Assembly: GCA_016207025.1 (NCBI GenBank)
Contig: JACQQM010000166.1
Location: 1-34,868, forward strand
Source: Nitrospirota bacterium
GTDB lineage: Bacteria; Nitrospirota; Nitrospiria; Nitrospirales; Nitrospiraceae
DNA: 34,868 nucleotides
Reading direction: 5' to 3'
Of the stretch, positions 1-24,994 are shown one piece after another. Each line of letters begins with the position of its first letter. Position 1 is the first letter of the stretch. The notes under the pieces are model-generated. The model was not told the origin of the DNA, did not search any database, and was given only the letters and a program-made list of their open reading frames with translations. Made by a program: the position numbers and the translations under genes.

Positions 1-481
1 CCACGATGCCGCCCACCACGACGTTGATGATATCCACCAGGAGCGCCGAGAGGGCGCGCTGCAGCAGCACGGTTTCGAAAAACAGGTTCGAATGCTCGGA
101 TCTGAAGGTCTGGTCCTTGAAGCGGGGAAACTGCCTGGACAGCGCGAGCGCCACACGGGCGAAAACACGCCGCTCGAGGATTTCCTCGGTGTACATTTGC
201 AATGCCCGGAAGGCCCCGACACACAGCAGGGTCAGCATCATGATGCCGGCCAGGGTGATGATCATGATCGGTTGGATGGCGAACGCGAAGGTGTTGATCA
301 GCTCTTGGACGGTCAACGGAATGATAAGAGAGAACAAACCGATCGCGAGCGCATAAGAGACGAGAATACCGAGAAGGCGTTTTTCGAGCCTGAAGTACAA
401 GGCCAGGCGGGCAATCGTGCTCTGGATCAGATCGGTCTTCTCGGGGCCGTGCAGGTTATCCGGACCGCTGGCGGTTTTCAT
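1..481 (-). CDS. ABC exporter of a type I secretion system, N-terminal part (gene runs off the window)
   Basis: An open frame starts with ATG at 481 and reads without a stop to the left edge, giving about 160 residues. The visible part is the start of an ABC exporter membrane domain. A short cytoplasmic lead (MKTASGPDNLHGPEK) is followed by a hydrophobic helix with an IIPLTVQELINTFAF stretch and a second long helix, then a cytoplasmic loop (EEILERRVFARVALALSRQF). No C39 peptidase domain precedes the membrane part. The ATPase domain would lie outside the window. It follows a HlyD-type and a TolC-type gene on the same strand, so it is probably the energising inner-membrane unit of that export system. 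The start has only a weak upstream GGGAA. The cargo is unknown. Confidence 0.8.
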   Translation of the reverse strand, partial: MKTASGPDNLHGPEKTDLIQSTIARLALYFRLEKRLLGILVSYALAIGLFSLIIPLTVQELINTFAFAIQPIMIITLAGIMMLTLLCVGAFRALQMYTEEILERRVFARVALALSRQFPRFKDQTFRSEHSNLFFETVLLQRALSALLVDIINVVVGGIV

Positions 482-613
482 GCTGATTCCCCGCGATTGC
501 CCGGGACCCGCGGCCTGTCGGTGAACGTGATGAACATGGCTCCCTCAGGCCGGCGAAGGGCTGGCGTCTGCTGGGCGTAAGCTTATCAGAGTCAACCAGG
601 ACATGCCACAGCG

Positions 614-2086
614 CTACTCTTTCGGCCGATAGCTCACGGGCACCGCTGAGGGTGAGCTTTTGGCCCAGGCGCCGATGGCCCACTGATAGAGCGCCAGCGC
701 TTTCTGGTAGTCCGCCTGCGCCCTGATCCACTGGTTCTCGGAGTCCACGGCGTTTCGCTCGCGGAGGTTGACGAACAGCACGCTGGTTGCGCCCAGGCTG
801 AACCGGAACCGCTCTCCTTCCTCCAGCGTTCTGGCCAATTGGAGTGATTGGAACGAGGCCGCGATCCGTTCTTTGGCCCGCTCGATGGCGGAGAGCGCGT
901 TATCGACGTCCACGATCACCTGTTGCTCGCGGAACTTCTGGACGAGAACAAATCGATCCGCCTTTCCCTGGGCTTCAAGAACTTCGCCTCGCGCTCGGCG
1001 CTGGAGGAACGGAATCCGCATCTCGATGCCGAACCGGTAGCCCAGTCCCAACACGAACTCGCCGGGCTTCCGTGAGGGCTCTGCTTCGGCGTTCAGGCTG
1101 GGCAGGAGGTTGTTCTTCGCCAGTTCCAGGTCAATATTGACCAGCTTGGCTTCAATCGCGACCTCGCGGACTTCCGGACGCACCTCTTTCGCGGCGACCT
1201 TGTCCGTCTTGACGATGTCAGGATGCGGCAGGGCGACCTGCCTCGGGAAGTCGGGGACGCGCTCACCGCCGGGGGCAGTGGGCGCACTGTTGTCCCAGAG
1301 AAACATCGAGAGCCTGTATTGCTCCTGCTCGATCACCCGCTGGGCGGCGATCAGAATTTCCTTCCGGCGCTGCACTTCCTGGTTGGCCTCCACCACGTCC
1401 AGCGGGGCCGCGGCGCCGGCCTTTGCGCGCTGCTCGATCTGCTTTGTCCGGTCTTCCGCCACCTTCAGCGCGCGCTTCTGCACGTCCGCCAGTTTCCAGG
1501 CGGCCACCCAGTCCCAGAACTGGCCGGCTGCACCCAGAAACAGATCCTGACGGGTCTGCGCGATCTGGATATCCGCCCTCGGATCGGCCAATCCGGACCG
1601 CTGCAGCTCGGCGTTCTCCGGGTTGACCATCAGTCCCCTTAGCAGCGGCATCGAGAATCCCATGATGGGCTGATTTCTATTGCCGACCTCCAAATCAGCA
1701 ATCTCGACGGGGCCGACGCCGACGCGGAACCCTCCGATGGCCCTGAGTCCCGAGGGGTGCCTCACGTCCAGGAAAGCATCATTGAACCCGACACTCTTGG
1801 TCTGGCCTCTGGTGACGAGCCGTTCCAGCTCCCAATCGTTGACCAAAGCCGGCTCGAAGGCACCCAAGGCCCTGAGCAGTCTTCCCCTGGCCACGATCTT
1901 TTCGGTGCCCGATCCTTTCAGCAGAGGGTGCGACCGGTCCACCCAGGCGAGCACCTCGTCAAGCGTCAGCGGGATCGGTGGCAGGGCTTTCGCTTTGTCG
2001 GTCTCCGCAGCGGCCGACGGAAAGGCTTCTCCAAAGCAAACCAGACACAGCGTCACGAGGACGGCGAGCCTGAGCGACCGGATCAT
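614..2086 (-). CDS. TolC-family outer membrane efflux/secretion channel
   Basis: This 490-residue protein has a Sec signal peptide (MIRSLRLAVLVTLCLVCFGEA, then SAAAE) and the alternating helical and coiled-coil composition of the TolC/OEP family. Repeated Ala/Glu/Arg-rich helices sit around residues 180-270 and 330-460. It should form the outer-membrane duct of the exporter encoded by its neighbours. The frame is open for 78 codons further upstream, but the ATG at 2086 is preceded by AAGGAG at good spacing and starts directly with the signal peptide, so that start is chosen. It lies between the HlyD gene (131 bases upstream) and the ABC gene (132 bases downstream). The family call is firm; the substrate is not known. 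Confidence 0.88.
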   Translation of the reverse strand: MIRSLRLAVLVTLCLVCFGEAFPSAAAETDKAKALPPIPLTLDEVLAWVDRSHPLLKGSGTEKIVARGRLLRALGAFEPALVNDWELERLVTRGQTKSVGFNDAFLDVRHPSGLRAIGGFRVGVGPVEIADLEVGNRNQPIMGFSMPLLRGLMVNPENAELQRSGLADPRADIQIAQTRQDLFLGAAGQFWDWVAAWKLADVQKRALKVAEDRTKQIEQRAKAGAAAPLDVVEANQEVQRRKEILIAAQRVIEQEQYRLSMFLWDNSAPTAPGGERVPDFPRQVALPHPDIVKTDKVAAKEVRPEVREVAIEAKLVNIDLELAKNNLLPSLNAEAEPSRKPGEFVLGLGYRFGIEMRIPFLQRRARGEVLEAQGKADRFVLVQKFREQQVIVDVDNALSAIERAKERIAASFQSLQLARTLEEGERFRFSLGATSVLFVNLRERNAVDSENQWIRAQADYQKALALYQWAIGAWAKSSPSAVPVSYRPKE

Positions 2087-2216
2087 GGCAGTTCTCCTTT
2101 CTTGAAACCACCCATCCACGGGAAAGTGACAGTGCGCTCTTGCAGGAAAGGAATAGGGGAGGAATGCCGCGGGTACGAAGCCGGCCCAGGAATGAGACCG
2201 CGTGGAACTTGCGCGA

Positions 2217-3644
2217 CTACTTTGCACCTCTCCCGGCTTTGGGTAACAGCGTGTCAAGTAAGGTGGGCGCCCTCTCTTGATAGTCGGGCGGGAACAGGTT
2301 AAACCGGCGCCACAGCTCATACCACAGCGGCACCCGATTCAGAATGACCCAGCCCATCACCTTGGTCCCTTGCCTCACATGAGCCTGTTCCGGCCAGGGC
2401 CTGTCTTCCGGATCCGGGACCACCCAAAAGCGGAAGTTGCCCTTGCCGTCGTCCACTTGGTCCACCACTTTGATGACGCCGCCGTAGGTGCCGGCCATCA
2501 ATTCGGGCCAGGCCGGAAGCGGAATGGCGGGGATCCCGTAGAACAGCAGCCGCACCTTGCGCCCCACGTTCAGCAGCGGAGCGTCGAGGCCGTCGGCCCA
2601 CAGCTCCGCCGCTTTGTCCGCGCTCAAGGGGGAGATCCGCACCAGCTTGTCACCGGGTCTGACCGTCTCGCCGGGGCCCACCTCGGCCATTCGTACCACC
2701 GTGCCGTCGATTGGAGCGAAGATGCGGCTGGCGATTCTCCGCTGCGTCGCGTTGGAAAGCCGAAGCGCGACGTCTGCCAACTCATTCGCCGCTCTCGCGG
2801 CATCGGCGAACGCCCCCGCCCGCGAGGCTTCCGCATCCAGGAGACGCTGCAGCACATCCGCGCTGATCTGATCGCGGCCGAAGCTCAGGGCCCGCATCCC
2901 CTGCTGAGCCGCTTTCAACGATGCCTCGGCAGCCTGCAGGTCGGCCCGGCTGGCGATGGCGGCCTGGATCGTCAATTCCAGTTCGCGTTGGGAAACCAGG
3001 CCCTCGACAGCCAGCAGGCGATGGCGGTTGACGTTCAGTTCAGCCGTGTCCACCCCGATCTTGGCGGCATTGACCCGTTGCTCAGCTTCCCGGACCCTGT
3101 TTTCCGCTTCGACCACCCGGGCTTCGGCGGACGGGACCGCCGCCTTGACCAGGTTCTGCATCTCCTTGATTCGCTTTTCGAGCTGATCAGCACGGTCCAA
3201 CGCCGCCAGACGGTTCTGCTCCAGCGCCGTCTTCCTTTGTTCGAGCAGGGACAGCAGGTCGGGCGCCATGAAATTCGGGTCCACGTCATTCATCTCGAGG
3301 ATCAGATCTCCCTGTTTGACCCGTACCCCTTCGTAGACATGCCATTTCACGATGCGAGCGGCGATCTGGGCCTCGATATCCTGGGGTCGTTCGTAAGGTG
3401 AATAGGCTGAGAGCTGACCGTTCGTGGTGATGGTCTGGGTCCAGGGGACAAACGCGATGACGAGAGCAAAGAGGAGGATCAGCTTAACCGCGAGTCTGGC
3501 AGAGAAGCGCAGCCGGTCCGGGATCTGAACGGCTTCCCAGGATTGCAGCTTGGAGGAGGTGGCGAGGTCGTCGATTTGTATATCATCCAGCCCCGTCGGC
3601 TGAGTGACGAGCGACTTCACCTTCCCCTTGACGGTGTCTCGCAT
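2217..3644 (-). CDS. HlyD-family periplasmic adaptor (membrane fusion protein) of type I secretion
   Basis: This protein of about 475 residues has a cytoplasmic N-terminus, one membrane helix near residues 50-70 (LILLFALVIAFVPW), and a lipoyl-like half motif (IVKWHVYEGVRVKQGDLI). A long coiled-coil hairpin follows, roughly residues 110-290, rich in Ala, Glu, Gln and Arg. The second lipoyl half is SRIFAPIDGTVVRMAEVGPGETV, ahead of a beta-barrel region. This is the HlyD/adaptor order, linking the ABC exporter to the TolC channel. A start at 3689 is possible, but a sigma70-like -10 box overlaps it. The ATG at 3644 has GGGAG about 8 bases upstream, so 3644 is preferred. First gene of the secretion operon. 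Confidence 0.87.
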   Translation of the reverse strand: MRDTVKGKVKSLVTQPTGLDDIQIDDLATSSKLQSWEAVQIPDRLRFSARLAVKLILLFALVIAFVPWTQTITTNGQLSAYSPYERPQDIEAQIAARIVKWHVYEGVRVKQGDLILEMNDVDPNFMAPDLLSLLEQRKTALEQNRLAALDRADQLEKRIKEMQNLVKAAVPSAEARVVEAENRVREAEQRVNAAKIGVDTAELNVNRHRLLAVEGLVSQRELELTIQAAIASRADLQAAEASLKAAQQGMRALSFGRDQISADVLQRLLDAEASRAGAFADAARAANELADVALRLSNATQRRIASRIFAPIDGTVVRMAEVGPGETVRPGDKLVRISPLSADKAAELWADGLDAPLLNVGRKVRLLFYGIPAIPLPAWPELMAGTYGGVIKVVDQVDDGKGNFRFWVVPDPEDRPWPEQAHVRQGTKVMGWVILNRVPLWYELWRRFNLFPPDYQERAPTLLDTLLPKAGRGAK

Positions 3645-3684
3645 AGGCTGCTCCCGGAGCACCTCACCTGGGAAATGCTCTTGA

Positions 3685-3714
3685 ATCATAAAGGATTCTA
3701 TGGGCCATGGTCAA
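3685..3714 (-). promoter_or_regulatory. Sigma70-like promoter for the secretion operon
   Basis: On the minus strand TTGACC (3714-3709), an 18-base spacer and TATGAT (3690-3685) match the vegetative consensus well. Transcription would start near 3678, giving a leader of about 33 bases before the ATG at 3644. This argues against the longer HlyD start at 3689. Confidence 0.5.
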
Positions 3715-3737
3715 ATGTTTGGATGGCTCGTTGGCCC

Positions 3738-3766
3738 TTGACCCGTGGCATGGACAAGGTTAAGGT
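3738..3766 (+). promoter_or_regulatory. Possible promoter for purE-purK
   Basis: TTGACC (3738-3743), a 17-base spacer and TAAGGT (3761-3766) lie 63 bases before the purE start. The -35 is good and the -10 is weak. It faces away from the secretion operon promoter in the shared divergent spacer. Confidence 0.35.
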
Positions 3767-3829
3767 GGGTCGCACAGCGCGGCGCACACCACCAGGCAGA
3801 CACGCACCCCACGCACATCGGAGGGATGA

Positions 3830-4360
3830 ATGGCGACTCGGCGTGATGAAAAACGAAGGAGCGCATTGCCGTTGGTCGGCGTCGTCGGCGGGAGCAAGAC
3901 GGATTTACCGATCCTCCAAAAAGCGGTCGACGTGTTGACCCATCTTGGTGTGCCGAACGAACTGCGGGTCGTGTCGGCTCACCGAACGCCGGACCGGCTG
4001 TTTGCCTACGCTGAACAGGCCGAGGCGCGAGGCCTCGAAGTCATTGTGGCCGGCGCGGGCGGCGCGGCGCACCTGCCGGGGATGCTGGCGGCCAAGACGC
4101 ACTTGCCGGTCATTGGTGTGCCGATCCCGACCGAAAACCTGCGGGGCCTCGATTCGCTGCTCTCCATTGTCCAGATGCCGAGAGGGGTCCCGGTGGCGAC
4201 CGTCGCGATCGGCGGAGCTGAGAACGCCGGGCTGCTGGCTGCCCAGATCCTGGCCGGACGGTATCGCACGATCCGCGAGCGGCTGCTCCGGTTCCGTGCC
4301 GAGCAGACACGGGCTTCGGTTGAGTCCTCGCCGGACATGAAACGCCAGCGGAAGCCGTGA
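3830..4360 (+). CDS. purE: N5-carboxyaminoimidazole ribonucleotide mutase (PurE class I)
   Basis: PurE moves the carboxyl group of N5-CAIR to C4 to make CAIR in purine synthesis, in the cytoplasm. The family signatures are in order: GGSKTD (residues 20-25), VVSAHRTP (47-54), [12 protein letters not shown] (74-85), [20 protein letters not shown] and [14 protein letters not shown]. At 176 residues it is slightly longer than the E. coli enzyme because of a basic N-terminal lead and a C-terminal tail. A GGAGGG box sits just upstream of the ATG. The next gene is purK, its pathway partner. The stop codon lies inside the first arm of a 7-base-word hairpin. Confidence 0.95.
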
Positions 4361-4437
4361 TGTGTGAAGCGTGATGCGTAATGGGTGCTGAAGGAGAGAA
4401 TCTCATCCCAATGACGTTCACTCATCACGGATCACAC
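4357..4437. repeat. Heptad-word quasi-palindrome between purE and purK
   Basis: Left arm (4357-4391) is a tandem of degenerate 7-mers: GTGATGT, GTGAAGC, GTGATGC, GTAATGG, GTGCTGA. The right arm (about 4415-4437) read on the other strand gives GTGATCC, GTGATGA, GTGAACG in the same register. The arms overlap the purE stop codon. A related right-arm-like stretch follows at about 4474-4491. Confidence 0.7.
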
Positions 4438-4438
4438 C

Positions 4439-4475
4439 GGGGACCCGTTGCATCTCACGGAGCAACGGGTGCCCC
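4439..4475. repeat. Short palindromic element (copy 1)
   Basis: Inverted arms GGGGACCCGTTGC (4439-4451) and GCAACGGGTGCCCC (4462-4475) pair with one bulged base around a 10-base loop. Its core GAGCAACGGGT recurs upstream of the bS22-like gene (16319-16329). The inverted ACCCGTTGC/GCAACGGGT core recurs inside dus (11795-11821). It sits in the purE-purK spacer, or in the purK N-terminus if an earlier start is used. Confidence 0.7.
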
Positions 4476-4506
4476 TCACACCTCACGTCCCATCGAGCCG
4501 GGGGCG

Positions 4507-5655
4507 ATGATCGGGGTCCTGGGCGGGGGGCAACTGGGGGCTATGTTCGCGATGGCTGCCCGCCGCCTCGGCTATCGGCTCGCCGTCTGGGATCCGGACC
4601 CCGATGCACCGGCACTCAAGTTGGCGGACCTTGCGCTGAGCGCGCCTTTGTCCGATCCCACCCCACTGAAGACGTTTGCGGACGCGATCGAAGCGGCGAC
4701 TTATGAGTGGGAGAATATCCCGGTCGCCGTGTGTGAAACGCTCGCACAGCGCATCCCGGTCAGACCGGCTCCTCAGATCCTGCGGGTGCTCCAGAACCGT
4801 CTGGAGCAAAAAACCTTTCTGACCAGTCGCGGGTTCCCGGTTGCGCCATTCCGCGCGGTGTCCTTTCCCGACAGGCTCGTGGTGCCGCAGGACATCGGCT
4901 TCCCCTGCCTCTGCAAGACCGCCACGGCCGGATACGATGGCAAGGGGCAGTGGCGGGTGTCGGGACCGAACGACATCCGGCCGGTCCGGGAGGAGCTTCG
5001 CCGACAGGGGCATAGCCCCTGGGTCCTGGAGCAGTTTCTCTCCTTCGAGAAGGAACTCTCGGTGGTGGTGGTCCGGGCGGCAGACGGGGATCGTCGCATC
5101 TATCCGACGGTCGAAAATCTCCACGAAAGCGGCATCCTGAGAATGACCCGCGCTCCCGCGCAGGTGGACCCCGGAACGGCCGAACGGGCTGCGACTTTGG
5201 CCGGCTCAGTGGTGGAGGCCATGGAGGGGGTGGGCGTGTTCTGCGTGGAGCTGTTTCTGATGCCGGACGGCCGTCTCTTCATCAACGAAATGGCGCCCCG
5301 CCCGCACAACTCGGGGCATTATACGTTGGACGCCTGTACCGTCTCCCAATTCGAGCAACAGGTGCGGGCCGTCTGCGGCCTTCCGCTCGGCGAGGTGCGG
5401 CTGCTCTGTCCGGCCGTGATGGTGAACCTGCTCGGTGAGGACCTGATCAAGGTGGGCTCCGGGGAGGGCCTCGCCAACCTGCTGCGTACGCCGGGTGCCG
5501 CCGTGCACCTCTACGGGAAAAAGTCGGTTCGTCCCGGCCGGAAGATGGGCCACGTCACGTTCCTGTCCGAGAAACCGGATGCAGCCTGGGAGGCGGCGCT
5601 AGCGCTGAGAAGAGCGTTGGGCAGACCGGGATTGCCTCAAGCCCCCCCGCGATAA
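4507..5655 (+). CDS. purK: 5-(carboxyamino)imidazole ribonucleotide synthase (PurK)
   Basis: PurK uses ATP and bicarbonate to carboxylate AIR to N5-CAIR, the substrate of PurE encoded just upstream. The protein shows the ATP-grasp plan: N-terminal MIGVLGGGQLG nucleotide loop, AATYEWENIP, CKTATAGYDGKGQ, the LEQFLSFEKELSVVVVR block, and the metal-binding FCVELFLMPDGRLFINEMAPRPHNSGHYT. From ATG 4507 it has 382 residues, normal for the family. The frame is open from 4381, and the preceding codons (RPIEPGA) resemble the usual PurK lead. The native start may therefore lie in the repeat-filled spacer (for example ATG 4411). The start is the only uncertain point. Confidence 0.93.
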   Translation: MIGVLGGGQLGAMFAMAARRLGYRLAVWDPDPDAPALKLADLALSAPLSDPTPLKTFADAIEAATYEWENIPVAVCETLAQRIPVRPAPQILRVLQNRLEQKTFLTSRGFPVAPFRAVSFPDRLVVPQDIGFPCLCKTATAGYDGKGQWRVSGPNDIRPVREELRRQGHSPWVLEQFLSFEKELSVVVVRAADGDRRIYPTVENLHESGILRMTRAPAQVDPGTAERAATLAGSVVEAMEGVGVFCVELFLMPDGRLFINEMAPRPHNSGHYTLDACTVSQFEQQVRAVCGLPLGEVRLLCPAVMVNLLGEDLIKVGSGEGLANLLRTPGAAVHLYGKKSVRPGRKMGHVTFLSEKPDAAWEAALALRRALGRPGLPQAPPR

Positions 5656-5724
5656 CACCCTGGCCGTGTTTTTATTCGTCAATCCGTCCGGTTGGCTCTT
5701 TCACACTCCTCATCTCTTTGCGGG

Positions 5725-5746
5725 ATCCCGTCGCGGGATTTCTTTT
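5725..5746 (+). terminator. Intrinsic terminator of purE-purK
   Basis: ATCCCG (5725-5730), a TCG loop and CGGGAT (5734-5739) form a perfect 6-bp stem. It is followed at once by a T-rich run (TTTCTTTT), 70 bases after the purK stop. Confidence 0.7.
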
Positions 5747-5749
5747 GTA

Positions 5750-5758
5750 TGGTATAGT
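5750..5758 (+). promoter_or_regulatory. Extended -10 promoter candidate for the double-receiver gene
   Basis: TGG directly followed by TATAGT is an extended -10 element. It lies just after the purK terminator and 65 bases before the receiver gene. No good -35 is visible. Confidence 0.35.
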
Positions 5759-5822
5759 TGCCATTGGCTCGCGGCACCGCGAGTCAACAAGAAACCCTTG
5801 AGACGGGTGACAAGCGCTCAGC

Positions 5823-6617
5823 ATGGCCACGATTCTGATTGTTGAGGATGAGCCGGCCGTCGGCGATCTGTTGAGGCAGGTCTTCACGCGCCAAGGCTAC
5901 AGGGTCATTACCGCGAATGGTGGCCGGGAGGCCCTGGAACTGTTTCAGCAGGATCGCCCACAGACCACGTTGCTGGATCTTCACATGCCAGGGATGGACG
6001 GCATCACGGTGCTTAAAAAAATCCGCGCGATCGACCCACAGGCCGCCGTGATGGTTCTGACCGGACTGCTGACGGATGATCTGGAAAATCAGGCTCGGGA
6101 GCTGGGGGTGACCGACTTTCTTCTGAAGGGAGACCTCTCGCTCGATGTATTGGTGGGGGCCGTGGGCCGACTGAGACAGCAGCAGTCGGCCACGCTCCCG
6201 GAAACGTCGGTTCCCTTTACAGATGCTTTGGCTGAGACTGCGAAAGAGGTCTTGATCTTGGTGGTGGATGACGAACCGCAGATCCGGGATATCCTGACCC
6301 AGTACCTGACCTTGCAGGGCTTTCGGGTCCGTACGGCTCGGAACGGCCCGGAGACGTTGCAATCGGTCGAGCAGGAGCGTCCTGAACTAATTATTTTAGA
6401 CATCTACATGCCGGGGATGAACGGCGTCGAGGTGCTGCGCCAGCTTCGGGATAAAAAGAATTACATGGGCGGGGTCATTATGTTGACCGCCAGCCAGGAC
6501 CAAGCGCTGTTGAAGAAGGCGTGGGCGCTGGGTTCGATTAATGTCTTGGGGAAGCCGGTTGATCTCGCACGGCTGTCGCTCGTCATCCACACCGCTCTGA
6601 CCTTCATCGGCCGCTGA
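5823..6617 (+). CDS. Response regulator with two receiver domains and no output domain
   Basis: This 264-residue protein contains two CheY-like domains. The first (about 1-120) has the acidic pair at 8-10, phospho-acceptor D52 in LLDLHMPGMDG, T80 and K102. The second (about 142-264) has D149/D150, D193 in IILDIYMPGMNG, T222 and K244 in GKPVD. All residues needed for phosphorylation are present in both, although the first domain lacks the usual KP (LKGD instead). There is no DNA-binding or enzymatic output domain and no histidine kinase nearby. It may relay or sink phosphate, or act through partners. It is flanked by the purK terminator and a convergent rhomboid gene, so it is probably monocistronic. 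Confidence 0.88.
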   Translation: MATILIVEDEPAVGDLLRQVFTRQGYRVITANGGREALELFQQDRPQTTLLDLHMPGMDGITVLKKIRAIDPQAAVMVLTGLLTDDLENQARELGVTDFLLKGDLSLDVLVGAVGRLRQQQSATLPETSVPFTDALAETAKEVLILVVDDEPQIRDILTQYLTLQGFRVRTARNGPETLQSVEQERPELIILDIYMPGMNGVEVLRQLRDKKNYMGGVIMLTASQDQALLKKAWALGSINVLGKPVDLARLSLVIHTALTFIGR

Positions 6618-6690
6618 CTCCTGACCGGCTCTTCCCTCAATCTAGCCTGTTCCAGCCAAATCTTGCAGAACAACCTCATTATTGAGCTGA

Positions 6691-6731
6691 GCCATCCTGC
6701 CGACAGGCCCTGAGGCGAGCGGCAGCATGGC
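6691..6731. terminator. Hairpin between convergent genes, possible bidirectional terminator
   Basis: GCCATCCTGCCG (6691-6702) pairs with CGGCAGCATGGC (6720-6731) at 11 of 12 positions around a 17-base loop. It lies between the receiver gene stop and the rhomboid stop. There is no U-tract, so termination is inferred from position and stem only. Confidence 0.45.
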
Positions 6732-6738
6732 GACGCCC

Positions 6739-7464
6739 TTACCAGTCTGAGGCTCGCCAGGACCGGTGCCGCCGCGGGGCGAAGAAGCGGACCTCGGGCC
6801 GCTTGAAGAGCCCGATCAGCGCCATGCCCGCAAGGAACCCTCCCACGTGGGCGAAGAAGGCCACCCCTCCCCCTTGCCTGCCGAGACTCAACCCGCCGCT
6901 CAGGAGTTGCAGCACAAACCAGAATCCCAGGACGAAACCGGCCGGCACATACATTGTTCTGGTGAAGATGCCCATCGGAATGAGCACCAGCACCTGCGCG
7001 CGCGGGAAAAGCAGCAGATAGGCGCCGAGTACGCCCGAGATGGCGCCGCTCGCGCCCACCATGGGCATGGTAGAGGATAGGTCGGTCAGGGCGTGGCTGA
7101 GGGCGGCCAGGACGCCGCAGGTGATATAGAAGATGACAAACTTGACGTGCCCCATCACGTCTTCAATATTGTTCCCGAAGATCCAGAGATAGAGCATATT
7201 GCCGATCAAGTGCATCCAACCCCCATGGAGAAACATGCTGGTCAGGAGGCTGGCGAAGGCAGGGAGCCCCATCACTTCCGGGGGGAGGGCGGCGGGCTGT
7301 CCAAACACCACGGCCGGGATCGCGCCGTAGCGGAGGACAAACAATTCTCCGGCCTCCTCAGGAAGCGAGACCTGGTACAGAAAGACGAGCACGCAGGCGA
7401 CGATGAAGGTAATGGTGAGGACCGGAGTGATCTCGGTTGGGTTGTCGTCGTGGAGAGGAATCAT
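6739..7464 (-). CDS. Rhomboid-family intramembrane serine protease
   Basis: This 241-residue protein has about six hydrophobic segments. It shows the rhomboid signatures HGGWMHLIGNMLYLWIFG (80-97), catalytic Ser139 in GASGAISG and catalytic His206 in FFAHVGGFLAG. It should cleave membrane-anchored proteins within the inner membrane; the substrate is unknown. The start MIPLHDDNP is typical for the subfamily. Upstream of the ATG is a pyrimidine stretch (CCCTTTCCTC) rather than a Shine-Dalgarno sequence. It is the last gene of a minus-strand group with the DHH and LOG genes, separated from the DHH gene by a heptad hairpin. Confidence 0.9.
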   Translation of the reverse strand: MIPLHDDNPTEITPVLTITFIVACVLVFLYQVSLPEEAGELFVLRYGAIPAVVFGQPAALPPEVMGLPAFASLLTSMFLHGGWMHLIGNMLYLWIFGNNIEDVMGHVKFVIFYITCGVLAALSHALTDLSSTMPMVGASGAISGVLGAYLLLFPRAQVLVLIPMGIFTRTMYVPAGFVLGFWFVLQLLSGGLSLGRQGGGVAFFAHVGGFLAGMALIGLFKRPEVRFFAPRRHRSWRASDW

Positions 7465-7470
7465 GAGGAA

Positions 7471-7574
7471 AGGGAAAAGTTAAAAGGTAAAAGTGAAAAC
7501 TAGTCAGGCATGGTCCGACAGGCAAACTCGCTTTATCACTCGTTACTTTTACCTTTTACCTTTTCACTTTTAAC
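7471..7574. repeat. Heptad-word quasi-palindrome between DHH and rhomboid genes
   Basis: Left arm (7471-7500) reads GGGAAAA, GTTAAAA, GGTAAAA, GTGAAAA. The right arm (7542-7574), on the other strand, reads GTTAAAA, GTGAAAA, GGTAAAA, GGTAAAA. The right arm overlaps the end of the DHH gene, so its last residues (VKSEKVKGKSNE) are repeat-encoded. The A-rich word differs from all other loci, but the 7-base design is the same. Confidence 0.75.
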
Positions 7575-8420
7575 TTGCGCTTCGCGCAGCGGGTCAACGG
7601 GTGACGGGCCGTCCGGGTCGAGAGGGACGGAGAAGCCGGCGGCATGGGTATGGCCGCCTCCCCCGTATTCGGTGGCGATAGTCGCGACATCGGCCCCGTC
7701 GGCGCGCGAGCGGAGGCTGTAGTAGCGGCGGCCGTCCCGATCATGCCAGATCACACAGAAGGGGTAGCCGGCGGACAGCCGTTCGCCGAGCTGGCTGTTG
7801 AGCACGGCGCTCTGGACGGCTGGCACGGTCTCCCCGTGGAACGAGACCAGCACCGCTTCCGCCGCGATTTTTCCGACCAGTTCGTTCTCATACCGTAAGA
7901 TTGCCCGTCCTTCAGCCTCCAGCACCTCCTGGCGGAGCCCGTCCCAGACATGGAAGTCATATGGATGGGATGACAGCGCGGCATTGATCTCGCGGCTGGC
8001 GGGCAGGGCCCAATGCCAGAGGTCTTTGTCCTGCACGTACTGGAGCAGCCAGGGGACCGGCTGGGCATGCGCCCACTCCCAAGCCATCACCGCGCCGGAC
8101 TTCTTTTGATCAAACTGCGCGTAGGGCAGGTCAGCCAGCGCGTTCTGGGCCGTAATGTGATGATCCAGGACAAGCAGGCTGGCGGCTTGCCCGGCGATGG
8201 CTTCGAGCGTCGCTCTCGGGTAACTGAAGTCAACGATCACGATATGACGCCCGGCGAGGTCGGGGGGCGGAGGGTACCCGTGCTTAACCGGGATGAACCG
8301 GGCTGAAGGAAACTGCTTCCACAGGGCCCACGCCGCGCCGAAGCCGTCCAAGCAGTCCGCATGGTACAACACCAGGTCGGGAACGGGCGCGGATTTGTTG
8401 TGAGGATGAGAACGGCTCAT
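7536..8420 (-). CDS. DHH/DHHA1-family phosphoesterase
   Basis: This protein of about 294 residues has an N-terminal DHH domain with LVLYHADCLDGFGAAW, the VIVDFSYPR strand and the VLDHHIT motif. A C-terminal DHHA1 domain ends in EYGGGGHTHAAGF. These hold the metal and phosphate ligands of the family, which includes oligoribonuclease/nanoRNase, pAp phosphatase and c-di-AMP phosphodiesterases. The exact substrate cannot be told from sequence. An ATG at 8438 is in frame, but it overlaps a -10-like TATGCT, so 8420 is preferred. The last dozen residues are encoded by a heptad repeat arm. It follows the LOG gene by 80 bases. Confidence 0.85.
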   Translation of the reverse strand: MSRSHPHNKSAPVPDLVLYHADCLDGFGAAWALWKQFPSARFIPVKHGYPPPPDLAGRHIVIVDFSYPRATLEAIAGQAASLLVLDHHITAQNALADLPYAQFDQKKSGAVMAWEWAHAQPVPWLLQYVQDKDLWHWALPASREINAALSSHPYDFHVWDGLRQEVLEAEGRAILRYENELVGKIAAEAVLVSFHGETVPAVQSAVLNSQLGERLSAGYPFCVIWHDRDGRRYYSLRSRADGADVATIATEYGGGGHTHAAGFSVPLDPDGPSPVDPLREAQVKSEKVKGKSNE

Positions 8421-8433
8421 AGAACCGGGACAC

Positions 8434-8461
8434 AGCATACCATGACTGAGCGGCCGGACAA
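8434..8461 (-). promoter_or_regulatory. Possible internal promoter for the DHH gene
   Basis: On the minus strand TTGTCC (8461-8456), a 16-base spacer and TATGCT (8439-8434) lie 14 bases before the ATG at 8420, in the LOG-DHH gap. Confidence 0.3.
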
Positions 8462-8500
8462 AGTCCCATTCCGAGAGGAGAGTCAGGAGCGGTTTGCGTA

Positions 8501-9589
8501 TCAGGCCGCTGAGAGCCGGTCGGGAGATGGGAAGTCGGGTGGCGTCGAGCAGGCGTTGATCCGGTCAATGAGCTGACGAAGTCGACCGGCGCTCCGTCGG
8601 TTATACAGGAAGACCAGACGAGGCAGGTCTTTCAGCTCCGGTTCGTCAAGTTCCTCGGGGAGCGGGTCGGAATGTTCGAAGGAGCCCTCCGCGAGCAGAT
8701 CGGCAAACTCCTTGTTGATCGTTGTCAACTGGTGATCGGTCAGGGCGTGCTTGAGCCGCATGACCAGGTGTCGGTCCACAAATCGAATCGAGTGATAGTT
8801 GCGGTAGAAAGTTTCGATCTCCTCGACGGCCGCCTCCTCCGAGGTCGCAATTTTAAAGAGGCTCAGGTCTTCCTTGTTGATGAGCTGGCGGGACAGGAGC
8901 TGATCGGTGATGAAGGCCAGCCAGCGATCCCAATAGTCGCAGCCCGGCGCCTGGAGGCAGACGATCGGTTGGGGATTGCTCTTGCCGGTTTGCGCGAGCG
9001 TCAGGGCCTCGAAGCCTTCGTCATGGGTGCCGAACCCGCCGGGGAACAGCGCGATGGCGTGACACTCTTTCACGAACATCAACTTTCTGGTGAAAAAATA
9101 TTTGAAGGTGATCAGCTTGGGGTCATCCGCGATGACGGCGTTGGCCCCCTGTTCGAACGGCAGCATGATATTGACGCCGAAGCTGTTCTCCGTGCCGGCG
9201 CCTTCCTGGCTGGCCCGCATGATCCCGTCGGCCCCCCCGGTGATGACCATGTAGCCGCGTTGGACCAGCCGACGCGTGAACCGATAGGCCAGTTGGTAAT
9301 TGGGATCGTCGGGCTGCGTTCTGGCCGATCCGAACACGCTGACCTTAGGCCGGCCACGGTACGGACGGAACACCTTGAAGGCGTAGCGGAGCTCCTTCAG
9401 CGTTCGATGCAGAATCTTGACGTCGAGCGTGTCCAGCTGGGCTTCCTTCAGCTTCAGGACCCCCACTAGCATCTCTTTGAGCAGGACGTTCCGAAGATCG
9501 TCTTCCGGTCCGTCCAGCAATGCCTGGACCTGCGCGATGATCTCTTCATTGGTTAACACCAGCCGCGCGGGCGTGGTCACAGTTCCCAT
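8501..9589 (-). CDS. LOG-family (lysine decarboxylase-like) nucleotide nucleosidase
   Basis: This 362-residue protein has a central LOG Rossmann domain: SVFGSAR (84-90), the MVITGGADGIM phosphate loop (114-124), and the family signature PGGFGTHDE (183-191). LOG proteins hydrolyse the N-glycosidic bond of nucleoside 5'-monophosphates (cytokinin riboside phosphates in plants, PpnN-type nucleotides in bacteria). The long N-terminal helical part (1-80) and the C-terminal extension (about 240-362) make it larger than the minimal LOG enzyme. Older annotations call such proteins lysine decarboxylases, which is misleading. AAGGAG lies upstream of the ATG and a good promoter further up. First gene of a three-gene minus-strand group. 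Confidence 0.85.
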   Translation of the reverse strand: MGTVTTPARLVLTNEEIIAQVQALLDGPEDDLRNVLLKEMLVGVLKLKEAQLDTLDVKILHRTLKELRYAFKVFRPYRGRPKVSVFGSARTQPDDPNYQLAYRFTRRLVQRGYMVITGGADGIMRASQEGAGTENSFGVNIMLPFEQGANAVIADDPKLITFKYFFTRKLMFVKECHAIALFPGGFGTHDEGFEALTLAQTGKSNPQPIVCLQAPGCDYWDRWLAFITDQLLSRQLINKEDLSLFKIATSEEAAVEEIETFYRNYHSIRFVDRHLVMRLKHALTDHQLTTINKEFADLLAEGSFEHSDPLPEELDEPELKDLPRLVFLYNRRSAGRLRQLIDRINACSTPPDFPSPDRLSAA

Positions 9590-13279: not shown

Positions 13280-13996
13280 ATGCGTTCAGCATTCATGTGG
13301 AGAAGGCGGGCGAGGGGGGACGGCGCCAGCCTGAGCGCGTTCTTCAATTTAAGATCGGTTGTTACGGCATGGGCGGTGGCGGCATGGGTGGTCTCAGGCG
13401 CTCCGGCGTATGGTATTGATGTCAAGCTCACGATGGAGGAGGCCAAGAAGGCCCTCGCGGCCGGACGCGAGCCGATGGAAAAGGCGGCAGAAGCTGCCAA
13501 ACCTGATGAAGAAGTAAGGAATTTGATGAGACAGGTCTCTCTTTCTACTCGCATTGGGGCCGATCCGGAAAAGGATCCCTGCGGGGCCAGCGCCATTTTG
13601 CGGACCAAGCGCTACTGGCTGGAGTCGTTCGGCCGGAAGGAGGCGACCGAATCCAAGAAGCAGAAGGCTGAGATCCGCATGCCCGATGATAAGATCCAAA
13701 AATACCTGGACATGCCGAATCTGGAGATGGAAGTCCAGCTCTGCGGGGACGACGAATACTTTGCCGAAGGAGTTCAGGTGGCGTTCCAGCAAGGGTCCAA
13801 GACGATCAAGCCGGTTGATGTCAGCCCGGCCGAAAAGGGGCGCAAGAACGAGAGCCAGGGTCCGCCCTATCGATCCCGATTTACCGCCCGGTTTTCGTAT
13901 GACAGCTTCGATCCGAATGCCAAGACCAAGGTGGTCATCTTTTTCCCGGACGGGAAGCAAACGGAGTTTGAGGCGGACTTCTCAAAAGTTAAGTGA
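13280..13996 (+). CDS. Secreted hypothetical protein
   Basis: I do not recognise a family. The start is secure: AAGGAGG sits six bases before ATG 13280. A twin-basic-like N-terminus (MWRRRARGD) leads into a hydrophobic segment (SVVTAWAVAAWVVSG) and a likely signal peptidase site after GAPAYG, so the product is probably periplasmic or surface-exposed. The mature part has about 190 residues. It contains two cysteines far apart (DPCGAS and VQLCGDD), a charged helical start (TMEEAKKALAAGREPMEKAAEAAK) and a beta-rich end (SRFTARFSYDSFD, TKVVIFFPDGKQTEFEADF). The gene has its own strong promoter and faces a convergent ABC exporter across a heptad hairpin. Confidence 0.75.
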   Translation: MRSAFMWRRRARGDGASLSAFFNLRSVVTAWAVAAWVVSGAPAYGIDVKLTMEEAKKALAAGREPMEKAAEAAKPDEEVRNLMRQVSLSTRIGADPEKDPCGASAILRTKRYWLESFGRKEATESKKQKAEIRMPDDKIQKYLDMPNLEMEVQLCGDDEYFAEGVQVAFQQGSKTIKPVDVSPAEKGRKNESQGPPYRSRFTARFSYDSFDPNAKTKVVIFFPDGKQTEFEADFSKVK

Positions 13997-14084
13997 TGAA
14001 CGATGAATGATGAACGAAAGAAGGTGCATTCAAGACATCTCTCCTGTTTTTTACGCGTTCCGCGTTCATCATTCAGCGTTCAGC
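13995..14084. repeat. Heptad-word quasi-palindrome between convergent genes
   Basis: Left arm (13995-14015): GATGAAC, GATGAAT, GATGAAC. Right arm (14061-14084), other strand: GCTGAAC, GCTGAAT, GATGAAC. About 18 of 19 inner positions pair. The left arm begins in the stop codon of the secreted protein gene. The right arm contains the stop and last codons (LNAE) of the ABC exporter gene. Confidence 0.8.
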
Positions 14085-16536: not shown

Positions 16537-16617
16537 GCGATGAACGATGAACGGCGAAAATCCGGATTCTGACATTCAACATTCAGCGTTCATCGTTCCG
16601 CGTTCATCGTTCATCGC
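16537..16617. repeat. Heptad-word quasi-palindrome at the lipoprotein 5' end
   Basis: Left arm (16537-16558) contains GATGAAC, GATGAAC. The right arm (16573-16617), other strand, reads GATGAAC, GATGAAC, GCGGAAC, GATGAAC, GCTGAAT, GTTGAAT. The outermost 17 bases pair perfectly. It covers the ribosome binding site, start codon and first 20 or so codons of the lipoprotein gene. Confidence 0.8.
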
Positions 16618-22082: not shown

Positions 22083-23240
22083 ATGGCGGACATTTTCATC
22101 GGATATGCCTCAGAGGACCGGGTCAGGGTCGAACCGCTGGCCAGAGCCCTCCAAGCCCAAGGGTGGTCCGTCTTTTGGGCCCCCGAGATCCCGCCAGCCG
22201 AGACGTGGCGCAACGTCCTCAATTAAGAGCTCGAATCAGCAAAGTGTATTGTGGTGTTCTGGACCAAAACCTCTGTCTCCAAAGAGTGGGTCATCGAAGA
22301 GGCGGAGGAGGGCAAAAGCCGGAATATCCTGATTCCAGTGCTCATGGACCAGATTGGTCGAGAGAGCATTCCACTCGGGTTTCGGCAGCGTCAGTGGGCT
22401 GATCTGACCGGTTGGCATAGCTCAATGACGCATCAGGGGTTCCAGCAATTCGTGGCGGGAATTTCCAGAATCGCCGGTCCCCCTTCCGCACAATCGGCAC
22501 AAGGTATCCAGAATCGTCCAGGCAATGTTCAAGAGAAGGCTCTTGCCAAGCCAATTGCGATCGAACACATGGTGCTCGTTCCCAAAGGGTCTTTTAAGTA
22601 CGGGGATGAACGGAACCTGTGCCCACTCAATTACGATTACTACATCGACATCTATCCGGTGACCAACGAGCAATTCAAGAAGTTCATCGAGGCGGGCGGC
22701 TATATGATGAAGCAGGAGCACTGGTCGGAGGAAGGATGGAAATGGAGAAAGAAAAATAAGGTCACGCAACCGTGCTATTGGGACGATCCTGGGTGGACCC
22801 AGCCAGATCATCCGGTTGTGGGGGTGAGCTGGTATGAAGCCGAGGCTTACGCCAAGTCGGTAGGCAAACGTCTGCCGACGGAGCAGGAATGGGAAAAAGC
22901 CGCGCGTGGGACGGATGGCCGCATCTATCCCTGGGGCGACGAGTTCGATAAGGAGAAATGCAATAGCGGTGCATCAGGGATCGGGAGAACCACCCTGGTC
23001 ACGAAATATGTCAATGGGCTCAGCCCCTATGGCTGTTACGACATGGCCGGCAACGTCTGGGTGTGGACGAGTTCGGTCTACGACAACAGTGGTCAATACA
23101 AAGTGCTTCGCGGGGGGTCGTGGAACCTTTACGCGTACTACCTGCGAGCTACGTATCGCAACCTCAACGAGCCGACGGACAGGATCGACGATCTCGGCTT
23201 CCGATGCCTCATGGCATTGCGAAGGAGGGAGGATGTATGA
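22083..23240 (+). pseudogene. TIR domain fused to a formylglycine-enzyme (SUMF1/C-type lectin) fold, interrupted by an in-frame stop; probable DGR target protein
   Basis: ATG 22083 opens a TIR domain (MADIFIGYASEDR, LARALQAQGWSVFWAPE) but reaches TAA at 22224 after 47 codons. The same frame goes straight on with the second half of the TIR domain (ELESAKCIVVFWTKTSVSKEWVIEEAEEG, ILIPVLMD). A linker follows and then a SUMF1-type domain: MVLVPKGSFKYGDE, YPVTNEQFKKFIEAGGY, HPVVGVSWYEAEAYAKSVGKRLPTEQEWEKAARG, YPWGDEFD, GNVWVWTSS, RGGSW and GFRC. Without the stop it would be one protein of about 385 residues. GTG 22251 could start a product lacking most of the TIR domain. This fold is the usual target of diversity-generating retroelements, and avd and a reverse transcriptase stub follow directly. 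Codon use is less GC-rich than in neighbours, suggesting transfer. Confidence 0.8.
23121..23204 (+). other. Putative DGR variable region at the 3' end of the target gene
   Basis: Between RGGSW and GFRC the reading frame has 13 codons of the type AAC, CTT, TAC, TAC, TAC, TAT, AAC, CTC, AAC, GAC, ATC, GAC, GAT. All end in C or T at the positions where DGR templates carry AAY codons. This is the footprint of adenine-specific mutagenesis. No matching template repeat is found elsewhere in the window. Confidence 0.6.
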
Positions 23241-23589
23241 CACAAGAATTCCCTGGTGTGAATCCGACCGCTGTGACGAAGGCCTATGACATCGTGCGTT
23301 GGCTGATCGGGCATGTGGGCAAGTTTCCTCGCTCTCACCGGTATGCGTTGGGAGAGCGATCGAACAGCGCATGCTGACGGTGCTGGAACTCCTGGTGCGC
23401 GCGGCCTATGCGCGTGAGAAGAAGGACCCGCTCGGCCAGGCGAATGCTGAGCTCCAAGTGTTGCGTCTGCTCGTCCGGCTGGGTAAGGACCTGGGCTTTA
23501 CGAGCGTGTCGCAATACGAGTTCATCTCCCGCGAGCTCGTGGACTTGGGCCGGCAGATCGGCGGGTGGGCCAAAGCTCAACCGAACTAG
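23237..23589 (+). pseudogene. avd: DGR accessory protein Avd, frameshifted
   Basis: ATG 23237 (AGGAGG upstream, ATGA overlap with the target gene stop) begins a four-helix protein (AYDIVRWLIGHVGKFPRSHRYALGER). It leaves frame at about 23358, ending at the TGA at 23375-23377. One base earlier in register, the sequence continues IEQRMLTVLELLVRAAYAREKKD, LQVLRLLVRLGKDLGFTSVSQYEFISRELVDLGRQIGGW, to the TAG at 23587. The joined product of about 117 residues has the Avd family pattern (FP-x-x-x-RYALGERI, LRLLVRLGKDL, QYEF, GRQIGGW). A single missing base between GAGCG and ATCGAA explains the break. Avd forms a pentameric barrel that helps the DGR reverse transcriptase. Confidence 0.78.
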
Positions 23590-23591
23590 CG

Positions 23592-23879
23592 ATGGGCCGA
23601 TTGTTTGACTCGATCACATCCTTTGCGAATCTGCTCGAGGCGGCCCGCCGGGCCATGCGCGGCGCGGGCGTCCAGACCGACCCCGGGCTTGTTGCGCTGA
23701 GTCAGCGCGAAGCCGAAGAGCGCACCACCCTGAGTCCGGACCGGCCAAGCGTCCCGACCACTGGACCGAGGGCCGGCCCGGGACCGGGCGTATCGACTTC
23801 ATCCTGCCGCCTCACACGTCCAGAATCAGCAAGGACGCGAAGGACGCAGAAGCTTGCGTTTGGATCGCCCTTACGATAA
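23592..23879 (+). pseudogene. N-terminal stub of a DGR-type reverse transcriptase
   Basis: Directly after avd, ATG 23592 starts MGRLFDSITSFANLLEAARRAMRG, which looks like the opening helix of DGR and group II-like reverse transcriptases (a LF-x-x-I-x-SF-x-NLL-x-AARRA-x-RG pattern). After about 30 residues the similarity stops. The remaining frame to TAA 23879 is Pro/Arg-rich and carries no fingers or palm motif, no catalytic YxDD box and no template repeat. A deletion has probably joined the RT 5' end to unrelated sequence ahead of vapB. The identification rests on a short segment and on its position. Confidence 0.55.
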
Positions 23880-23914: not shown

Positions 23915-24154
23915 ATGCCGACCTCGACTGTAACCAGCAAAGGTCAGACCACTATCCCCAAGGAGATCCGAGATCGCCTGCACCTGCAAGCCGGCGATCG
24001 CTTGGAGTTCGTCGTGGACGAAGATGGGCGCGTGCTGGTGCTCCCCGCTACGGTGGATGCGGCGGAGTTGGCCGGTGTCCTCAAGCCCCCGCCGCGACCG
24101 GTGTCGGTTGAGGCGATGAACCAAGCCATTCGTAAACGTGGAGGCCGCCGGTGA
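23915..24154 (+). CDS. vapB: AbrB/MazE-type antitoxin (VapB)
   Basis: This 79-residue protein has an N-terminal SpoVT/AbrB swapped-hairpin domain (TSTVTSKGQTTIPKEIRDRLHLQAGDRLEFVVDEDGRVLVLP), which binds operator DNA, and a C-terminal tail (AELAGVLKPPPRPVSVEAMNQAIRKRGGRR) that would wrap the toxin. AAGGAG precedes ATG 23915. It overlaps the PIN-domain gene by four bases, the normal toxin-antitoxin arrangement, and probably represses its own operon together with the toxin. It sits at the edge of the decayed retroelement. Confidence 0.9.
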   Translation: MPTSTVTSKGQTTIPKEIRDRLHLQAGDRLEFVVDEDGRVLVLPATVDAAELAGVLKPPPRPVSVEAMNQAIRKRGGRR

Positions 24155-24546
24155 TCGGCCTGGACACGAATGTGCTCGTCCGCCACTTGGTGCAAGACGA
24201 TCCTGCGCAGTCCCAAAGGGCCTCCCAATTGATCGCACGCGAGTGCACAAGGGATAAGCCTGGCTTCGTCAATCGGATTGTGCTCTGTGAGCTGGTGTGG
24301 GTCTTGGAAAGCGCTTACGGGTACTCGAAAGAGACGATCGCGGGCGTGTTGGAGAAAGTCTTGCGGACGACCCAGTTCCAAATCGAGGATTTGCCGGTTG
24401 TCTGGACGGCGTTCCGTCTGTATCAGAAAGGTAAGGCCGACTTTGCCGATTGCCTGCTGGGGGCCCTGAATCGCCATCACGGATGCGATCGCACGGTGAC
24501 CTTCGATCAGCATGCGGGCAAGCTTGAAGGGTTCGAACTGGTGTGA
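24151..24546 (+). CDS. vapC: PIN-domain ribonuclease toxin (VapC)
   Basis: This 131-residue PIN domain has the four acidic metal ligands in place: Asp5 in GLDTNVLVR, Glu in CELVWVL, Asp in KADFADCLLG, and Asp in TFDQHAGK. VapC toxins cut tRNA or rRNA and stop translation when not bound by VapB. The start is GTG 24151, overlapping the antitoxin stop (GTGA), so translation is coupled. The gene appears intact. Confidence 0.92.
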   Translation: MIGLDTNVLVRHLVQDDPAQSQRASQLIARECTRDKPGFVNRIVLCELVWVLESAYGYSKETIAGVLEKVLRTTQFQIEDLPVVWTAFRLYQKGKADFADCLLGALNRHHGCDRTVTFDQHAGKLEGFELV

Positions 24547-24567: not shown

Positions 24568-24597
24568 TTGACAATTCCCCCGGCGTTTTGCTTGAAT
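24568..24597 (+). promoter_or_regulatory. Promoter candidate for the F0 ATP synthase operon
   Basis: TTGACA (24568-24573), an 18-base spacer and TTGAAT (24592-24597), about 100 bases before atpI. A heptad hairpin lies between them. Confidence 0.5.
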
Positions 24598-24619: not shown

Positions 24620-24691
24620 GCTGAATGATGAATGCTGAACGCTGAATGGTTGGAATTCATCATTCATCACTCTGCTTTCAGCATTTGGCAT
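24620..24691. repeat. Heptad-word quasi-palindrome upstream of atpI
   Basis: Left arm: GCTGAAT, GATGAAT, GCTGAAC, GCTGAAT in exact register (24620-24647). The right arm starts with ATTCATCATTCA (24655-24666), which pairs with the GAATGATGAAT part, and continues with a degenerate copy. Confidence 0.75.
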
Positions 24692-24914: not shown

Positions 24915-24921
24915 CAATGCA

Positions 24922-24983
24922 GAACGATGAACGCGGAATGCTGAATTAATTTCCCAATTCATCGTTCATCATTCAGCGTTCAA
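24922..24983. repeat. Heptad-word quasi-palindrome between atpI and atpB
   Basis: Left arm: GAACGAT, GAACGCG, GAATGCT, GAATT (24922-24947). The right arm (24956-24983), other strand: GAACGCT, GAATGAT, GAACGAT, GAATT. 20 of 26 positions pair and mismatches fall at the same word positions. Confidence 0.8.
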
Positions 24984-24994
24984 CACTGGTTGTT

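Follow-up and report, generated by a model that had tools for sequence, protein, structure and literature searches.

A probable fossil of a diversity-generating retroelement with a TIR-SUMF1 target gene in a Nitrospirota genome

Introduction

Three adjacent reading frames on a Nitrospirota contig raise the question of whether an immune receptor armed with a TIR domain was once rewritten by a diversity-generating retroelement (DGR), and of what then became of the machinery that did so. An earlier, sequence-only reading of this DNA (34,868 nucleotides, referred to here in its entirety as the window) described the frames as a decayed DGR, in which a target gene joining a TIR domain to a SUMF1 domain is followed by avd, the gene for the accessory protein, and by the start of a reverse transcriptase (RT). 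Comparison with genomes of the same family upholds that description through the order of the parts, their homologs, a deletion junction and a set of sister loci, and we are highly confident that what survives here is a fossilized DGR, once complete, with a TIR-SUMF1 target. Homologs of the target, avd, the RT start and a structured element that follows the template repeat (TR) in sister loci all stand in DGR order and on the DGR strand; chance is excluded because order, strand and several independent E-values agree. The window descends from a DGR and is not itself a functional one, because it has no RT and no TR and its homing signal is lost.

DGR targets linked to TIR domains have already been published (PMC10907252, PMC7517822), and the window is a new, dead example of them. 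It extends TIR-armed DGR receptors to a lineage not singled out in the DGR literature cited here, and as a fossil it is clean enough for its exact lesions to be read off. Three features go beyond the earlier reading: a fossil of the post-TR spacer (23666-23783), the loss of the homing signal, and an insertion site between trpE and atpI.

A target gene joining TIR and SUMF1 domains

The target gene lies on the forward strand at 22083-23240, from an ATG at 22083 to a TGA at 23238-23240. When its frame is read through one internal stop, Pfam recognizes TIR_2 at the N-terminus (residues 4-122, E 5e-21) and FGE-sulfatase, a SUMF1 domain of the C-type-lectin fold, at the C-terminus (residues 161-376, E 5e-54), both in a single frame, which upholds the fusion first proposed. 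The stop, rightly placed in the TIR domain by the earlier reading, is a TAA at codon 48 (22224-22226, forward strand); it is the only one in an otherwise clean frame and would abolish the TIR domain. The fold and the conserved TIR glutamate, E73 in WVxxE, which alignment with relatives finds retained in the window, are those of a predicted NADase or signalling protein. The SUMF1 half persists as an open frame of 329 codons, still uninterrupted, which suggests either recent decay or residual use.

The SUMF1 half, modelled by AlphaFold at pLDDT 78, shares its fold with FGE/EgtB (TM about 0.7), and at the sequence level target residues 248-375 align (E 2.8e-9) with the C-terminal domain of Treponema denticola TvpA (PDB 2y3c), a DGR variable protein without a TIR domain. 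The target has the build of a C-type-lectin-fold DGR target, namely a SUMF1/FGE-type domain with the variable repeat (VR) at its C-terminus. The same genome carries a second TIR-SUMF1 gene, L047 (~7506-8830, G000:C118), whose TIR domain is 60% identical to that of the window; this paralog has a hydrophobic stretch between its domains and a frameshift after the TIR part, and neither avd nor RT was found nearby.

Remnants of avd and the reverse transcriptase

The order target, avd, RT start is borne out: each part lies where it had been placed, and all three frames are real. The avd gene (23237-23589, forward strand) is split by a frameshift around 23353-23374, as had been claimed, and NF033474 matches both pieces, the C-terminal one at E 7e-18 (with bAvd at E 4e-12 and phrog_3206 at E 2e-16) and the N-terminal one, in the other frame, at E 5e-5. 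With 75-80% identity to sister Avd proteins over its C-terminal part, the product is a clear homolog of the intact Avd of a functional DGR, here divided by the frameshift.

Directly after avd, matching the arrangement of intact loci, comes the RT start (23592-23663, forward strand), the first 24 codons of a DGR RT, which is 66.7% identical over 24 residues to the DGR RTs of sister genomes (L100, L102 and L111; tblastn E 4e-6). The RT had been thought lost after some 30 residues, and the loss is real: homology covers about 24 residues and is followed by the post-TR region. A profile search of the repaired frames, suggested at the outset as a check, recovered TIR, FGE-sulfatase and Avd and did not recover the RT start, which on its own matched no Pfam or NCBIfam model and only phrog_1423 (E 0.13), because the fragment is too short. 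Where a functional element has a DGR-type RT, these 24 codons are all that is left, and a search of the window's own genome (84.8% complete, 174 contigs) found no RVT_1 or DGR RT; an RT acting in trans is conceivable in a genome 85% complete and so divided.

The variable repeat and its lost homing signal

The VR (23112-23204, forward strand) comprises 31 codons, GGSW...GFR, which is also the length of nearly all family TRs and VRs found. The absence of a TR, as read originally, holds for blastn of the VR region against both the window and its own genome: no TR near-identical to the VR, as a functional DGR would have, was found, and the best of the short matches in the genome were conserved SUMF1 motifs of other genes. 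Elsewhere in the family the signature of mutagenesis is clear, with clean adenine-only differences between TR and VR in the L102, L107 and L031 DGRs (21 of 31 A vs 1 of 62 non-A positions, 19 of 30 vs 0 of 63, and 20 of 32 vs 0 of 61, respectively). For the window VR, set against borrowed templates (eight family TRs and the L031 TR), the adenine excess gave p values of 0.02 to 0.33, most of them nonsignificant; support for a bias is weak here because the window's own TR is lost. Three TRs share AAY at eight codons, and at each of these the window VR has NNY (P 0.004, post hoc); across the aligned domain family, variability falls on the columns where TRs have Asn (p 3e-6). Past mutagenesis of the window VR is likely, judging from such comparisons.

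In family VRs, the 3' tail consists of CAGGAC, a stop and repeats of CCCTTTG, and the matching TRs have CAGTCC or CAAGAC at the CAGGAC place, the expected IMH/IMH* type of difference. Set against these sister VRs, the VR-avd junction of the window (23205-23236, forward strand) contains neither the CAGGAC motif nor the CCCTTTG tract, and the spacing from VR to avd is 32 nt vs about 115 nt in L102 and L109; the IMH that a functional DGR has at the 3' end of its VR is missing. With this tail lost, even an RT provided in trans would probably be unable to rewrite the window VR. In the 130 nt after the VR, a scan for hairpins with a stem of at least 6 bp found none in the window, L102, L109 or L107, whereas L042 has one and L031 has a weak one. 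The earlier verdict that this copy is frozen stands, with RT and TR gone, the homing signal lost and avd frameshifted.

TIR-SUMF1 genes with and without a retroelement

Among 175 family genomes, we found 16 full-length Avd genes, all but one of which (15 of 16) adjoin an RT. Those neighbouring targets that were scanned against Pfam all combine a conflict-type domain with a C-terminal FGE-sulfatase domain, their N-terminal parts being TIR, TIR-nSTAND1, DUF4062-nSTAND1, trypsin or caspase; KAP-SUMF1 targets were found in other taxa. A TIR-SUMF1 target without an NTPase is accompanied by avd, RT and TR at two loci, L111 (G148) and L041 (G012), the latter with one frameshift near the RT start. These are near-intact relatives, in the same family, of the kind that a search of related genomes had been expected to reveal; a search of viral contigs for relatives of the near-intact TIR-SUMF1 target found none. 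A further three loci (L168, L170 and L172) pair TIR-SUMF1 with an avd stub only, and about 9 of the 14 family loci examined besides the window, L047 included, have TIR-SUMF1 with no DGR part nearby. The sequence-only reading had counted against itself any relatives carrying the same genes with no retroelement association, and on this point the family is divided between L111 and L041, which have a DGR, and the roughly 9 of 14 loci that do not. Since TIR-SUMF1 genes occur with no adjacent DGR, the receptor does not need the retroelement.

A separate peculiarity concerns the L111 target (6835-8556, G148:C135), whose frame shifts inside the VR end and leaves its final residues, GFRCAQD, out of frame; another round of homing at this locus could change the frame of the target end.

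Such independence invites the proposal that the window's TIR-SUMF1 gene encodes a fixed receptor of the ordinary conflict-system kind, never diversified, which lies beside DGR debris by chance. DGR-free TIR-SUMF1 genes are indeed common in the family and include the paralog in the same genome, and the adenine test of the VR is weak. Yet the avd and RT remnants sit directly behind the target, arranged as in sister DGRs; the VR shares length and scaffold residues with TRs and carries NNY codons at TR Asn positions; and TIR-SUMF1 is the DGR target at L111 and L041. We regard this proposal as improbable and favor the fossil of a complete DGR.

The deletion junction and the post-TR RNA element

In DNA comparisons with L100, L102, L109 and L111, RT homology ends at window position 23663, corresponding to RT nt 72, and homology restarts at 23666 (23657 with L102), about 69 nt beyond the end of the TR. 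The junction at 23663-23666 fuses RT codon 24 to a point 69 nt past the TR, and the size of the deletion, measured on the sister loci, is about 1.21-1.23 kb. This stop and resumption of homology show a single internal deletion that removed the RT from codon 25 onward, together with the TR and a further 68 nt. Assembly collapse of VR and TR was also considered for the missing RT and was rejected, because both joined points lie outside the 93-nt VR/TR repeat.

The segment to the right of the junction (23666-23783, forward strand) is a fossil of a structured post-TR, or spacer, RNA element. It is 75-79% identical (E 3e-20 to 5e-12) to the four sister DGRs L100, L102, L109 and L111, in which its counterpart is the stretch 69-184 nt after the TR. 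Folding relative to shuffled sequences gave z-scores of -2.8 to -3.6 in the sister loci and -1.2 in the window, and an alignment of six sequences contains two conserved stem-loops with 7 pairs showing two-sided changes. The BPP-1 DGR has a structured spacer 3' of its TR, to which RT-Avd is recruited and from which cDNA synthesis is primed (PMC12875486); by analogy, we infer that the post-TR element may serve as an RT-Avd-recruiting and priming spacer RNA in the same role. Across the family, all strong matches to it belong to DGR loci or to what is left of them, namely beside avd, RT and TR in G144, G148, G105 and G069 and at remnants in G166 and the window, and weaker partial matches occur in G011, G026 and G168. 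A conserved structured RNA after the TR is a usable search probe.

The lesions also bear on whether the element might be intact in the organism, with the stop, the frameshift and the RT/TR gap all being artefacts of metagenome assembly. The source is a fragmented draft of 174 contigs, the second TIR-SUMF1 gene of the genome is likewise frameshifted, and assemblers can be misled by short repeats. Against this, the join between RT codon 24 and the position 69 nt past the TR falls outside the 93-nt repeat, the VR tail has been rebuilt too, and the target frame is otherwise clean, and we judge an artefact very unlikely. Among the lesions, the TAA and the frameshift might each be an error of assembly, but point errors could not account for the deletion, the loss of the homing signal or the absence of the TR.

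Truncated avd genes and dispersed targets

About 30 truncated avd stubs (L192-L224 and related loci), 28-78 residues long, are present in 24 of the 175 family genomes, and some 18 of these 24 are without a full-length DGR RT. Most of the stubs directly follow a VR-bearing SUMF1 gene, with unrelated flanks downstream. A boundary common to all stubs was considered and rejected, as they break off at points spread across about avd codons 28-62 and many have unrelated flanks. Either the DGRs were lost in place at these loci, or targets were dispersed together with their 3' flank.

That the window target is itself such a dispersed (remote) target, copied with some flank, never part of a whole element and rewritten by an RT in trans, seems to us scarcely credible: the roughly 30 similar stubs, most directly behind a VR gene, the remote DGR targets known elsewhere (PMC7517822) and the incompleteness of the genome speak for it, but the window has a whole-length (frameshifted) avd, an RT start and a post-TR element in DGR order, as no stub locus does, its genome has yielded no RT, and its VR is without the homing signal that stub loci retain.

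Two other loci show further arrangements. At L160 (G166:C19, about 7393-8070), a SUMF1 VR that is 96% identical to the TR of L109, in another genome, has the post-TR element behind it, while avd and RT are both missing from the locus; it looks like a VR x TR recombinant that dropped avd and RT. At L049 (G020, 1-8024), a TIR protein precedes a tandem run of trypsin-like/SUMF1 genes, two avd stubs lie among and behind these genes, and no DGR RT was found in that genome.

Origin and decay of the element

The fossil-DGR reading suggests an ancestral cassette in the order TIR-SUMF1 target with VR, avd, RT, TR and structured spacer RNA, which would have sat between trpE and the promoter of the atp operon as a small island that today also holds a VapBC pair. 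In its intact form, an RT-Avd complex would have copied the TR RNA from a spacer-provided primer with errors at adenines; this mutagenesis, and the immune function of the ancestor, are ascribed to it from characterized DGRs and TIR effectors. In the window genome, an internal deletion of about 1.2 kb fused RT codon 24 to the spacer and took out the TR and almost the whole RT; the homing signal has gone from the VR-avd junction, avd is out of frame and TIR carries its premature stop. The receptor itself is frozen, and probably inactive.

The family-wide pattern is one of receptors that outlive, or travel without, their diversifier, and it makes testable the idea that DGR-diversified immune sensors are retained as fixed receptors once the retroelement is gone. 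A broader reading, which we offer as speculative and rather unlikely, is that the DGRs of this family are temporary affinity-maturation machines: a sensor armed with TIR, trypsin, caspase or STAND would be diversified, the retroelement would then be lost by internal deletion or by VR x TR recombination as suggested at G166, and the receptor would be kept as a fixed member of a germline repertoire. If this were true, the roughly 30 avd stubs would record past rounds, or else mark dispersed targets with a homing signal, and the window would be a retired receptor that is itself starting to die.

Comparison with known systems

TIR-containing DGR targets have been described in Thiohalocapsa PB-PSB1 and its relatives (PMC10907252). 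As in the window-type loci, the PB-PSB1 DGRs combine conflict domains, TIR among them, with a C-terminal C-type-lectin/FGE domain carrying the VR, and an accessory protein, RT and TR are present (PMC10907252). Their TIR domains, however, occur with CHAT or STAND NTPases or in neighbouring genes (PMC10907252), whereas the window target is TIR-SUMF1 alone and its element is dead. Cyanobacterial DGR variable proteins bear N-terminal TIR-like, caspase, GUN4 or CHAT domains and include remote variable proteins (PMC7517822). They share with the window a signalling or effector domain placed N-terminally on a C-terminal CLec domain, as well as dispersed paralogs, and differ in belonging to another lineage and in being described there as working elements (PMC7517822). 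Targets tagged by avd stubs are a feature of the Nitrospirota family here and were not met in the passages of the cyanobacterial account consulted here (PMC7517822).

The Bordetella phage BPP-1 DGR likewise has Avd, RT, TR, a structured spacer RNA after the TR and an IMH at the VR end, but it has the TR and spacer placed between avd and RT, and a phage tail protein as its target (PMC12875486); in window-type loci, TR and spacer are 3' of the RT and the target carries TIR. The VMAP/iSTAND ternary conflict systems resemble the window in having multi-domain conflict proteins that end in a diversified FGS domain of the C-type-lectin fold, a TIR effector and DGRs (PMC7159879), and differ in that no MoxR or vWA partner was found beside the window target.

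Insertion site and neighbouring genes

In most of the 29 relatives compared, 120-260 bp separate the divergent neighbours trpE and atpI, against 2.7 kb in the window; the short spacing in relatives would represent the empty site. A conserved atp promoter-like sequence is kept on the right (TTGACA at 24568), so the island, as delimited by the trpE/atpI spacing, lies between about 22010 and 24560, from trpE to the atp promoter. Its right part bears out the claim of a VapBC pair downstream of the DGR remnant: an AbrB/MazE-type, VapB-like antitoxin (23915-24154, forward strand; TIGR01439 E 7e-17, PF04014 E 3.5e-14) is followed by a PIN-domain, VapC-like toxin (24151-24546, forward strand; PF01850 E 6e-13).

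Palindromic repeats of the form GATGAATGCTGAA...TTCATCATTCA, short and intergenic, lie in the window at 13995-14065, 16539-16603, 24620-24690 and 24920-24990; G011 and G018 have such repeats in the gap between trpE and atpI, and they also occur close to the L047 paralog.
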